Part shown: in pieces, positions 39,547 to 42,474 of the stretch
How the letters are laid out: the number at the start of each line of letters is the position of its first letter
Numbering within the stretch: the first letter of the stretch is position 1
Origin: Cyanobium sp. NS01
Lineage (GTDB): Bacteria > Cyanobacteriota > Cyanobacteriia > PCC-6307 > Cyanobiaceae
Direction: 5' to 3'
DNA: 64,000 nt
NCBI RefSeq assembly: GCF_014280235.1
Contig: NZ_CP047940.1
Span: 1,178,001 to 1,242,000, forward strand
The notes under the pieces: generated by a model
Database searches by the model: none
The model's input: only the letters and a program-made list of their open reading frames with translations
What the model was told of the DNA's origin: nothing
Position numbers and translations under genes: made by a program

Positions 39547-40797
39547 ATGGCTGACGACGACCCCAGGGACTTCAAGCAGGTCAGCCTGCGCCTCTCAGCC
39601 GAGCTGGTGAGCCGCATCGACGTGCTCAAATCAGAACTCGGCTGCCGCAGTCGCGGCGCTGTGCTGGAGCGGCTTCTGCACCACCTGCTCGGTCCTGAGG
39701 GCGAGGAGGTGGATCTCTATGGCTCTGCATCCCTGGCACCACAGCAGTTGGAGCTGGGGGCCGACGCCGCAGCACCCTCGGCAGGCTCAGGCGGCCAGTC
39801 AGTCGTCGATCCACCTGCTCTGGAGCCGCCCCAGCCTGGCGTGGCAGTCGTGTCGGCGGCACCAGTGGAGCACCCCTGCCAGGCAGGTGACCCGCCCAGC
39901 CTGGCCCCGCCGCTGTCAGCGGCGGCAGGATCCTCCGCAGCGTCGCCTGAGCAGAACGGCGATTTCGATGAATGCGGCGCCCTTGTACTCCTGGCCGGCA
40001 GCCGACCGGGAGAGCTGCTGGTGGATCCCCTCTCGGAGCTGTCACGCCGGGATCAGCCCGCCGCCGACGAGCGGGTGGACCCTGAGTCCAGCGGTGGTTC
40101 AGGCTCCCGCCGGTCCAGGCGCGGCATCGACCTGCCGGGCTTCGTGCAACGCCGCAGTGACCAATTGCGGCGCAGCCTCGATCCAGAGGCCAAGCAACCC
40201 CCCACCCGCCTGGAGCCGATGCCCCAGGTGCCGGTTGAACGCCTCACCCTGGCGTTGGCCAGGGCAGATCAGCACTGGCAGGAGCTCTATGCCCAGCCCG
40301 CCTCGGCGCCGGTGCTCGAGGCCGCGATGCTCTGGATCGCCCAGGACATCTGGCCCCAGAGTGACCAGAGCGAGGGGCGGCTGTTCACCTGGTCGCTGGG
40401 CCGGGAGGTGATGCGTCTGGTGGCTCCGTCCTGGCCTGAGGGTCCGGCCAGCTTCGCCAAGGTGATGGTGATGGCCGGCGTGCTGGAAGACCCCTTCAGC
40501 AGTGCCACCCTCGAGCTCCGCATCCCCACGCTGATCCGACGCTTCGTGCACCGTTTCCGCCAGCGCCGCAGCGGCACTTCGTTCCAGAGCCTGGAGCACA
40601 CCATGACGTTGCTGGGGGCCCTGAAGTTGCTGGAGCTGCCCACGGATCCGGGCGAACGACTCACCTTGCCCCAGATCCGCGAGGCCTACCGCGAGATGGC
40701 CATGGCCCACCATCCAGACGCGGGAGGGTCGGATGATCTGATGCGTCGCCTGAACGAGGCCTACCAGCTGCTCAAGGAGCTGTACCGCACGCGCTGA
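39547..40797 (+). CDS. Ribbon-helix-helix and J-domain fusion protein
   Basis: 416 residues. The front (residues 10-48) reads KQVSLRLSAELVSRIDVLKS then RGAVLERLLHHLLG, the pattern of a CopG-like ribbon-helix-helix DNA-binding segment. A Ser/Pro/Ala-rich linker follows to about 190. A middle part of about 140 residues (PVERLTLALARADQHWQELY to VHRFRQRRS) is not recognised. The last 65 residues are a J domain with the Hsp70-contact motif HPD (MAMAHHPDAGG) and closing helix LMRRLNEAYQLLKELYR. A DnaK partner would be expected. Whether the first part binds DNA is untested. No Gly/Phe region and no zinc finger, so it is a type III J protein. Confidence 0.8.
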   Translation: MADDDPRDFKQVSLRLSAELVSRIDVLKSELGCRSRGAVLERLLHHLLGPEGEEVDLYGSASLAPQQLELGADAAAPSAGSGGQSVVDPPALEPPQPGVAVVSAAPVEHPCQAGDPPSLAPPLSAAAGSSAASPEQNGDFDECGALVLLAGSRPGELLVDPLSELSRRDQPAADERVDPESSGGSGSRRSRRGIDLPGFVQRRSDQLRRSLDPEAKQPPTRLEPMPQVPVERLTLALARADQHWQELYAQPASAPVLEAAMLWIAQDIWPQSDQSEGRLFTWSLGREVMRLVAPSWPEGPASFAKVMVMAGVLEDPFSSATLELRIPTLIRRFVHRFRQRRSGTSFQSLEHTMTLLGALKLLELPTDPGERLTLPQIREAYREMAMAHHPDAGGSDDLMRRLNEAYQLLKELYRTR

Positions 40798-41106
40798 TGC
40801 TGATGTCCGTCAGAGGCGGGAATGGCATCGAACATAGGCATCTCACACGACCCGGTCGAGTCCCGCTATGGGTCCCTTGCCGAGACCTGACTGAGACGCC
40901 TGCGCCTCTCGCTTGGCCCCCCGATCGTCCTGTCACAAGCCATCGAATTCGCTGGCGCAGAAACGGGGGCGCCCGTCCAGCCTTGCGGGCGGGCGACTTC
41001 GCACACGGAGTGCGTGGGGGCCCAAAGACGCAGTTCAACCTGATTGGCTGGAGACACCACCCGGCTGGAGCGCGGAGTCGCCCCTGCGTCTTACGCTGTT
41101 CTTGCC

Positions 41107-41189
41107 AGTCCCATGTGGGACTACCTGCGCGTCCCGACTGGGACCTGAGAGCGACAGGTGGGATCGTGTTTTTTCAGTGTTTTCACCTG
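41107..41189. repeat. Nested GTCCC hairpins with competing stem and T tract
   Basis: AGTCCCA and TGGGACT (41107-41122) form a seven-base stem with a two-base spacer. GTCCC and GGGAC (41131-41144) form a second. ACCTG at 41123 can pair with CAGGT at 41155, enclosing the second hairpin, but the same CAGGTG can instead pair with CACCTG at 41184, enclosing a run of six T (41169-41174). The two pairings exclude each other. Confidence 0.55.
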
Positions 41190-41437
41190 CGCTTTCCGGG
41201 CCGTTGGACCCTGGAGGAACCAGCCTTGACTCGGCTGCTCGCTCGCGGCAGACACTCGTCGTTACGCTTTGAACGGCTTCCCGTCCACTCCCGCAAGCCC
41301 TGGTGAGCTGCGCATGGAGACGGCTCAACACTGATGCATGGGCTCAGGAGCGAGGATTGCCTTGTCCAGACAGCCTCTCGCATCGTGTCCAGAAACTGGC
41401 CCTGCTGTTGAAAGACACTGCAGACACTGAACTCTCT

Positions 41438-41476
41438 GACCCTGCGTACCTGTGTCTAATGCAGGTACGCAGGGTC
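41438..41476. repeat. Perfect 15-bp inverted repeat with 9-base loop
   Basis: The arm GACCCTGCGTACCTG (41438-41452) is repeated exactly in inverted form at 41462-41476, with nine bases between. No T run follows on either strand, so it is not an ordinary terminator. It is the longest perfect hairpin I found in the window. Confidence 0.85.
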
Positions 41477-41506
41477 GCTGGCAGGGAAGGAAGTCGCCAA
41501 CCTGCT

Positions 41507-41559
41507 GGGCTCTCTAGAGAGTCCCAGTTACGGCTCTTAGCGAGACTGTGATAGGGACT
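41507..41559. repeat. CTCTCTAGAGAG palindrome and competing GGGACT pairing
   Basis: A 12-base palindrome (41510-41521) is flanked by GGG and, after one unpaired T, CCC. The AGTCCC formed at its right edge (41520-41525) can instead pair with GGGACT at 41554-41559, again giving two structures that exclude each other. Confidence 0.5.
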
Positions 41560-41701
41560 CACGCGCGACCGCTGAGACTGTCTTCATGAGCGCGCCCAGG
41601 GTTTCTCTGGCTTGGTCCAATGGCTTGAGCAGCCTCGGTGGCCAGTGGTTCCAGGCTCGGCGCCAGGGCCTGCTTTCAGGATCTTGAGCTGCTCTGCTGG
41701 C

Positions 41702-41745
41702 GGGGGACACATGCGTGGCTTGTTGGCTGGCTACCGATGTCCCCC
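41702..41745. repeat. Inverted repeat GGGGGACA/TGTCCCCC
   Basis: Eight-base perfect arms at 41702-41709 and 41738-41745 with 28 bases between. Contains the same GGGAC-type core as the neighbouring hairpins. Confidence 0.5.
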
Positions 41746-41789
41746 TATGCGACAGATCTGGGTGGAGGCCTTGAGGGTGGCTCGATCAT

Positions 41790-41823
41790 CTCTCCTGGGA
41801 CTCGCTCTGGGTCCCGGCGAGAG
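41790..41823. repeat. Two-part hairpin CTCTC-GGGAC/GTCCC-GAGAG
   Basis: CTCTC and GAGAG form the outer five pairs, GGGAC and GTCCC the inner five, with a small internal loop and a nine-base end loop. Confidence 0.55.
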
Positions 41824-41896
41824 ACCAGGGCGGGACGAGCTGGATGCGAAAAGTGGCTCGCTACGCGTCGCCCAATGCAGCGGCAGCGTTCGCCAC

Positions 41897-41940
41897 GAAA
41901 AAGCCCCACAAGCTGCAGGGTGCGGCAGATCGTGGGGCCT
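41897..41940 (-). terminator. Rho-independent terminator of apcD
   Basis: On the minus strand, GCCCCAC and GTGGGGC (plus-strand 41903-41909 and 41932-41938) form the stem, with a shorter CTGC/GCAG pair in the loop, and the transcript then runs into five U residues. It lies 40 bases beyond the apcD stop. Confidence 0.85.
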
Positions 41941-41979
41941 GGGAGGTGGTGAGTCGCTGAGTGCCGGAGCCGAAAGGCT

Positions 41980-42474
41980 TCAGGTGGGGGTCTGCATCCC
42001 CTGGATCAGGTAGTCGAAGTAGGGACCGGCGAGGGCGGCCTGGTCGGTGGACAGCAGGGAGAGGGCGGCATCCTTCATGGTGCGCATCGCCTCGACCATG
42101 CCGGGCATCGGCACGCCCAGGCTGTTGTACATCTCGCGGGCTCCCACCAGGCCGATCTGCTGGATCAGTTCGGTGCTGCCAGCCAGCACCCCGTAGGTGA
42201 CCAAGCGCAGGTACCAGCTGTAATCGCGCAGGCACTGAGCCCGCTGCTTCTGGCCGTAGGCATTGCCGCCGGGAGCCACGTAGTCGGGTTTGCGGCTGAA
42301 CAGCTGTTTGGCGGCTTCGTCAACGATCTTCTTCTCGTTGTCGGTGAGGGAACGCACCACCGCCAGGCGCCGGGCGCCGCCGCTGAGGTAGTCCACCATC
42401 GATCGCAGCTCGCCGCCGCTTGGATAGCGAAGCTGGTCGTCTGCCTGAAGGATCAGATCCCGAACGACGCTCAT
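41980..42474 (-). CDS. apcD: Allophycocyanin B alpha subunit ApcD
   Basis: A 164-residue phycobiliprotein, one of the terminal emitters of the phycobilisome core that pass energy to photosystem I and [25 protein letters not shown] and [20 protein letters not shown] match ApcD more closely than ApcA. The bilin Cys is in [20 protein letters not shown], with GGNAYGQKQ just before. It is transcribed alone, with a terminator downstream, which also fits ApcD and not the apcABC operon. The gene opens into the repeat-rich region at its 3' side. Confidence 0.93.

Follow-up and report, generated by a model that had tools for sequence, protein, structure and literature searches.

A non-coding island in Cyanobium sp. 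NS01 appears to be one copy of a locus that is conserved across Cyanobium, Synechococcus and Prochlorococcus and that lies near the apparent end of chromosome copying. The island is presumably a phased, protein-bound stretch of DNA with a single composite core that is common to cyanophages, and our confidence is high that it serves as a conserved site of protein binding at the terminus. Location, conservation, phasing and sharing with phages are results read from sequence, and from them we infer binding, recombination and function. The likeliest reading of that function is a site resembling dif, the strongest rival being a centromere-like or organising site. Within the window (the whole stretch of 64,000 nucleotides that was analysed, positions 1,178,001–1,242,000 of contig NZ_CP047940.1), the island and its neighbours are arranged as follows:

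39547–40797, plus strand: RHH-DnaJ gene, encoding a 416-aa protein with ribbon-helix-helix (RHH) and J domains, recognized from Pfam, AlphaFold and family-wide presence; candidate binder of the array

40798–41979, no strand assigned: non-coding terminus locus, the gap between the stop codons of two convergent genes

41980–42474, minus strand: apcD-like phycobilisome gene, recognized from the Pfam family Phycobilisome and synteny

A sequence-only reading of the window had placed a gene-free island, poorer in GC and rich in GTCCC/GGGAC, between a J-domain gene and apcD, and these two genes do both end towards it. The island is indeed gene-free as far as profile searches go: ten reading frames in the gap were scanned against Pfam and NCBIfam, none reached a curated cut-off, and a protein encoded in the gap was therefore rejected. 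The best match, to DUF4335 (16.3 bits against a cut-off of 27, E 0.0096), falls in a short minus-strand frame at 41540–41710 that we do not take as a gene. GC content is lower than in the window as a whole (62.5% vs 68.9%), although the '50–60%' first given was somewhat low, as the minimum for any 300-bp piece of the island is 58.7%. The count of 13 GTCCC/GGGAC copies in 40798–41896 was exact. Their excess is real but had been underestimated at four times; since the rate in the rest of the window predicts 1.43 copies, it is about nine-fold. When the window was scanned in stretches of 1099 bp at steps of 100, the eight richest all overlapped the island, and 300 dinucleotide shuffles of the gap itself yielded 3.8 ± 1.9 copies, with a maximum of 11.

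In 11 of 13 genomes of the genus, namely those with both gap neighbours on one contig, the same pair of genes borders a gap of 810–1189 bp. Family-wide, the comparison covered 71 stretches lying 3' of the J-domain gene (our own being taken from the window). Of these, 48 reach as far as apcD, and their median gap is 1074.5 bp. These 48, in which both genes lie inside the fetched stretch, form the set used for phasing below. By synteny, apcD is the usual convergent neighbour of the gap where apcD exists, and Pfam scans of flanking genes identified DUF3370, apcD and a tRNA methyltransferase. Synteny and similar gap length, in the genus and across the 48 family gaps, led us to reject the idea of a decayed or mobile element confined to this genome; decay had been suggested from the sequence alone. 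Gap sequences align poorly within the genus; thus selection seems to have retained spacing and motifs rather than long sequence. Two further components of the gap deserve mention. A G+C-rich inverted repeat followed by TTTTT at 41898–41938 on the minus strand (the T run seen by eye) is the probable intrinsic terminator of apcD, an ordinary component of such a gap. A T-rich element at 41166–41189 (TTTTTTCAGTGTTTTCA) recurs by eye in gaps of the genus. We make no claim for it, because its family-wide mean score was barely above that of shuffles (14.6 vs 13.4) and its position scatters.

The repeated pentamer turned out to be one version of the motif GTCYC/GRGAC. In 11 gaps of the genus, GTCTC/GAGAC ranked first for enrichment by z-score among 5-mers (96 vs 36) and GTCTCA/TGAGAC among 6-mers (46 vs 8); GTCCC/GGGAC is the commoner form in our genome (13 of 20 sites). 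Across the 48 gaps there are 549 GTCYC/GRGAC sites, as against 298 ± 16 in shuffles, and pairs no more than 60 bp apart number 394, as against a shuffle mean of 95 and a maximum of 127. Start-to-start distances are sharply quantised, falling at 11–12, 23–24 and 35 bp for sites on the same strand, at 9, 21, 33 and 44 bp for convergent sites and at 14 and 26 bp for divergent ones. Same-strand pairs at 12 bp occur 24 times in the 48 gaps (0.8 in shuffles) and convergent pairs at 9 bp 28 times (0.4 in shuffles). With the symmetry centre shifted by 1.3 bp, the orientation-corrected distances fall on a single lattice of ~11.7 bp, on which 74 pairs lie one step apart, 55 two steps, 54 three steps and 17–23 four steps. 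A second series lies ~9 bp off this lattice (same strand 20, 32 and 44 bp; convergent 18, 42 and 53 bp; divergent 22 bp). In a control with one gap per genus (16 gaps, genus labels assigned by hand), 14 of the 17 tested spacings exceeded all 200 shuffles, those failing to do so being convergent 44, convergent 53 and divergent 22. The gap in our genome holds 16 lattice pairs vs 7 in 463 kb sampled elsewhere in the same genome. Clusters contain up to four sites and span ~35 bp; three sites are usual in other genomes, while in ours clusters 1, 2 and 4 are tetrads spanning ~35 bp and cluster 3 is incomplete:

40860–40897, no strand assigned: phased tetrad 1, with GTCCC at 40860, GTCCC at 40872, GAGAC at 40882 and GAGAC at 40893

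41108–41144, no strand assigned: phased tetrad 2, with GTCCC at 41108, GGGAC at 41117, GTCCC at 41131 and GGGAC at 41140

41521–41578, no strand assigned: phased cluster 3, with GTCCC at 41521, GAGAC at 41542 and GGGAC at 41554 (one lattice position empty), and GAGAC at 41574, ~20 bp on

41797–41836, no strand assigned: phased tetrad 4, with GGGAC at 41797, GTCCC at 41811, GAGAC at 41821 and GGGAC at 41832

Pairing of these copies at short range had been taken as a sign of hairpins and possibly of a structured RNA. Inverted pairs do exist, but many copies are direct repeats 11–12 bp apart, and the numerous same-strand repeats at 11–12, 23–24 and 35 bp are unexplained by hairpins. No Rfam family matched the island at its gathering score, the sub-threshold matches having E values of 2 or more. 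When five 220-nt segments were folded on both strands and compared with shuffles, eight of the ten gave z between −1.7 and +0.2; only the segment at 41018 folded better than shuffles (z −2.3/−2.7). Of the 28 GTCYC-N4-GRGAC pairs in the 48 gaps, 16 have complementary variable bases, 11 a C-A mismatch and one a wobble, and these stems therefore do not covary. In favour of a structured or regulatory RNA made from the gap, one could cite the one segment with excess folding and the palindrome described below, which could form a hairpin. Given the absence of an Rfam match and of compensatory changes in the stems, and the phasing along one strand, we regard such an RNA as very improbable.

The protein encoded beside the array combines a ribbon-helix-helix domain (residues ~12–48), a long linker, a helical domain (~230–340) and a C-terminal J domain, whose HPD motif (389–391) is invariant in 40 sequences. 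Pfam scores are 22.7 bits for RHH_1 (cut-off 20.5) and 25.1 for DnaJ, the latter below its cut-off of 27.8. An AlphaFold model is confident for an N-terminal helical pair, the helical domain and the J domain, and of low confidence for the linker. Foldseek found no match to this model at E ≤ 0.001, the recognizable ones being J domains, and a profile search of PDB sequences returned J domains together with the RHH protein NikR (E 0.02). Matches to the protein occur in 175 of 201 family genomes. In a phylum sample of 291 genomes, 36 of the 37 with a match belong to this family (Cyanobiaceae) and the one outside it covers the C-terminal part only, such that in this sample the full-length protein is confined to the family. 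Among the best 80 of 304 relatives, one record titled Bifidobacterium breve MAG (L304) encodes a cyanobacterial RHH-DnaJ protein and is probably mislabelled or contaminated. We also noted family members without the RHH-DnaJ gene and the palindrome pattern, in genomes G030 (L248) and G044 (L247) and in genus g8. Among the literature matches listed, titles and abstracts held no description of this locus or of a cyanobacterial RHH-DnaJ protein, and none were found to combine RHH, DnaJ domain and cyanobacteria. Taking its adjacency together with the known DNA-binding habits of RHH proteins, we think this protein probably binds the array.

Set within the array is a composite core, the parts of which are:

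41363–41470, plus strand: composite core of TGTCCA repeats, spacer and palindrome, its orientation conserved relative to the RHH-DnaJ gene

41363–41368, plus strand: TGTCCA accessory repeat, 81 bp before the palindrome

41386–41391, plus strand: TGTCCA accessory repeat, 58 bp before the palindrome

41438–41476, no strand assigned: extended inverted repeat with 15-bp perfect arms and a 9-nt centre

41444–41470, plus strand: 27-bp near-palindrome GCGTACCTGTG-TCTAA-TGCAGGTACGC, the sole pattern match in this genome

Of the 71 stretches 3' of the RHH-DnaJ gene, 69 contain the palindrome at a passing score, among them that of G002, whose left arm is degenerate; in the other two (G051 and G202) it lies beside apcD on another contig. 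The pattern GMGTAHCTG-N9-CAGDTACKC is present in 117 of 271 genomes of the order, and its reversed control in 0 of 271. It is single-copy in 115 of the 117; G118 and G128 have two copies, and in neither was the second found within ~60 kb either side of the first. The exact pattern is missing from 154 of the 271, many of them RHH-DnaJ-positive. Some of these misses are drift: seven of nine loci from g14, a genus that resembles Prochlorococcus in size and A+T content, carry a diverged GTACTG-N9-CAGTAC, each with GTCCA 58 bp before it. A weight matrix built from 63 host sites scored those same training sites at 23–43 bits, as against at most 7.9 in 400 kb of our genome. All ten RHH-DnaJ-negative genomes that were searched for the pattern lacked it. 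Because many RHH-DnaJ-positive genomes with a drifted site also miss the pattern, the apparent tracking of the palindrome's absence with that of the gene is suggestive only.

The accessory repeats recur at fixed distances, with GTCCA at −60 to −54 in 67 and at −84 to −64 in 62 of 78 host loci; an AAnCC motif recurs more weakly between these repeats and the palindrome. At arm positions 2 and 6, the two sides often change in concert. Beyond the arms, at least four extra pairs can form between the flanks in 17 of the 78 sites, vs 3% for flanks paired between genomes (0 of 10,000 permutations, among related sequences that are not independent). This complementarity makes a cruciform or hairpin possible, albeit unproven. 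In three enlarged gaps (G129, G148 and G070, the inserted ORFs named by eye), the palindrome still adjoins the RHH-DnaJ gene. No prophage was seen in any gap within the fetched stretches, which are shorter than 2.7 kb and so would mostly miss larger insertions.

To place the locus on the chromosome, we assumed that oriC lies next to dnaN in the genomes studied here, as is reported from experiments in S. elongatus (PMC7198777). We found dnaN in 39 of 41 genomes and used the 26 of these with an exact length, their positions being transcribed by hand. The locus lies at a median of 0.476 of the circle from dnaN, at 0.44 or more in 21 of the 26 and at only 0.33–0.40 in the other five (minimum 0.332). 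In 24 genomes that allowed comparison with the conserved tyrosine recombinase gene discussed below, the medians were 0.472 for the locus and 0.335 for the gene, and the locus was the farther of the two in 18. The S. elongatus terminus is reportedly not clearly defined by skew (PMC3480399). GC skew proved uninformative as terminus evidence in our case and AT skew was used instead: in our genome it is negative in nine of nine sampled stretches left of the locus and positive in seven of 11 to the right (p = 0.001 for the difference), and of mixed sign inside the 64-kb window. One of the sampled stretches, G000:C1:1918001-1938000 (L203), has a GC content of 54.4%, as against ~64–71% in the other 19, and is a possible acquired island.

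A terminus position would suit a replication fork barrier, at which the array, or the palindrome folded as a hairpin, would arrest forks or signal where replication ends, in the manner of Tus/ter or RTP. The extra flank pairs, more frequent than in mismatched genomes, also fit such a barrier in that they would permit a cruciform or hairpin. Fork traps of the Tus/ter or RTP kind, however, use several polar sites, whereas here each genome has one near-symmetric palindrome, and the presence of the site in phages also counts against a barrier. We consider it improbable.

The palindrome pattern occurs on at least 120 viral contigs, vs 31 in all for the reversed control; these include related contigs and fall into 75 similarity clusters. 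With GTCCA scored on either strand in viral and control sites alike, 92 of the 120 viral sites listed have it between −60 and −54 or between −13 and −4, as opposed to 2 and 0 of the 31 control sites, and with one site per cluster these offsets recur in 49 of 75. The histogram of offsets comprises the 111 viral sites with full flanks. About a third of the sites listed (38 of 120) have the host-like arrangement at −58. A second class has GTCCA directly beside the palindrome and includes L393, with a T7-type terminase and thymidylate synthase nearby; on second-class contigs L377, L397, L405, L407 and L424 we observed recurrent TAGTTAGTTACAG-like repeats around the palindrome. In tblastn searches of the 120 loci (E ≤ 1e-3), in which planted controls were found, there was no homologue of RHH-DnaJ, apcD or the recombinase; thus, judged by these markers, the viral loci do not consist of host DNA. 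Several of the viral contigs are T7-like cyanophages; for L431 and L399 the nearest records are of this type. No named relatives were found for L375 and L407. In the complete phage record AP013539, the terminase gene adjoins a 944-bp stretch with no annotated genes, and the site falls within that stretch. The site was absent from six other T7-like phage records that were scanned.

Sharing with viruses raises the question of whether the palindrome is simply a phage attachment site, attB, with the array serving autoregulation of RHH-DnaJ. A T7-like cyanophage attP has been described in tRNA-Leu, accompanied by a phage integrase (PMC8776855), and intact prophages are reported absent from these hosts although integration occurs (PMC8776855). 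As in that case, cyanophages here carry a stretch of host sequence, but our site is at the terminus and is lacking in S-TIP37 and Syn5. The palindrome and repeats common to viral contigs would fit attB. Yet none of the 49 annotated genes of AP013539, many of them hypothetical, is called an integrase, and there was no phage integrase among 12 different viral proteins from five of the 120 loci. Further, the array lies 3' of the RHH-DnaJ gene rather than at its promoter, the palindrome stays with that gene where others intervene before apcD, and phages are unlikely to be the reason why a site has persisted from Cyanobium to Prochlorococcus. An attachment site with an autoregulatory array is therefore, in our judgement, quite improbable.

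If the palindrome is instead a crossover site of the host, a recombinase is needed, and the best candidate is a divergent tyrosine recombinase (PF00589) found in 195 of 201 genomes. Our own copy (G000:C1:1509676-1510833) scores 29.1 bits against PF00589 and 13.5–18.1 bits against the XerD, XerS and XerA models, whose cut-offs are 220–330. Distinct from it is a 331-aa phage- or integron-type tyrosine recombinase at G000:C1:994500-997500 (L238), which by eye adjoins a transposase-like frame. The conserved recombinase is also absent from G030 and G044. The recombinase is, however, present in genus g8, which lacks the RHH-DnaJ gene and, in seven of seven genomes, the exact palindrome pattern (five g8 stretches beside apcD were examined); the site thus does not track the recombinase. 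FtsK (PF01580) was found in none of 26 genomes at E ≤ 1e-8, in a search that was positive in eight of 14 control genomes. PMC3480399 suggests that untangling of the FtsK type may be dispensable in cells with many chromosome copies; the absence of FtsK thus need not point to a substitute.

The case of g8 favours a centromere-like or terminus-organising site without recombination, at which RHH-DnaJ, bound to the array and palindrome, would hold the terminus in place, cluster it or segregate it, as do a phased array of short sites beside an RHH gene and the terminus position. The models for such a site are the RHH centromere proteins ParR, ParG and omega, which act on short sites repeated in phase at intervals of about one helical turn (ParR on parC), and MatP, an RHH terminus organiser whose matS targets are dispersed single sites. 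The RHH gene adjoining a phased array, evident here in the DNA, is shared with these plasmid centromeres, but our locus is chromosomal, lies at the terminus rather than the origin, has a single palindrome and is paired with a J domain. With MatP it would share an RHH protein acting in the terminus region, but it appears to differ in having one dense array at one locus and differs, again, in the J domain; no MatP-family match was found in the RHH-DnaJ protein, for which Pfam gives RHH_1 and DnaJ alone at E up to 1. Anchoring or segregation alone also leaves unexplained the single, highly conserved 27-bp palindrome with its fixed accessory repeats, and the viral cores, whose fetched stretches lack RHH-DnaJ or recombinase homologues. 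We consider a site of this kind unlikely overall.

The reading that we prefer, a recombination site at the terminus, has its closest parallel in XerCD/dif. A dif site is ~28 bp long, with ~11-bp arms and a short asymmetric centre. In both systems there is a single near-palindromic site of ~28 bp at the terminus and a conserved tyrosine recombinase in the genomes (here a candidate), and phages carry the site. The differences are that FtsK is absent here (26 of 26 genomes), that the recombinase is far from Xer models and that our locus has extra accessory repeats and a phased array; the arm sequence, too, presumably differs from that of dif. XerCD was present in the cyanobacteria examined by Kono 2011 (PMC3025954), and dif prediction is reported there to have failed for all five single-chromosome cyanobacteria. 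That the palindrome is a recombination site akin to dif is a tentative proposal, to which we give slightly less than an even chance. A second parallel is with the Xer sites of plasmids. At cer and psi a crossover core lies next to an array for the accessory proteins PepA and ArgR, which gives directionality without FtsK. Our locus resembles these in its palindromic core and (predicted) accessory-protein array, and differs in being chromosomal, at the terminus, with RHH-DnaJ rather than PepA/ArgR as presumed accessory protein. The broader proposal, of an FtsK-independent terminus site in which a dif-like core and an accessory array bound by RHH-DnaJ have been copied by cyanophages, seems to us evenly balanced between right and wrong.

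Such a site might work as follows. RHH-DnaJ would bind the phased sites as dimers and assemble a nucleoprotein complex centred on the palindrome, which would be the crossover site of the host tyrosine recombinase, most plausibly the divergent protein described above. The complex would supply the directionality provided elsewhere by FtsK, so that joined sister chromosomes are resolved, or termini are held and separated; the J domain would recruit Hsp70, by which the complex would be dismantled; and cyanophages would carry the site to exploit this host machinery. In its boldest form, the picture is of an undescribed machine that ends the chromosome cycle without FtsK, with an RHH-J protein wrapping the array, a recombinase resolving sisters, Hsp70 dismantling the complex, and phage copies letting host enzymes resolve or integrate phage genomes without an integrase. 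Taken as a whole, that picture is speculative and more doubtful than the site on which it builds.

For chromosome resolution and segregation in polyploid cyanobacteria, the locus offers a single 27-bp site, a putative DNA-binding protein linked to it and a recombinase candidate, which together open these questions to direct testing. In the phage copies there is a concrete lead to contact between phage and chromosome in hosts without reported intact prophages. Picocyanobacteria are among the most abundant photosynthetic cells and, if our reading is true, they would possess a previously undescribed machine.
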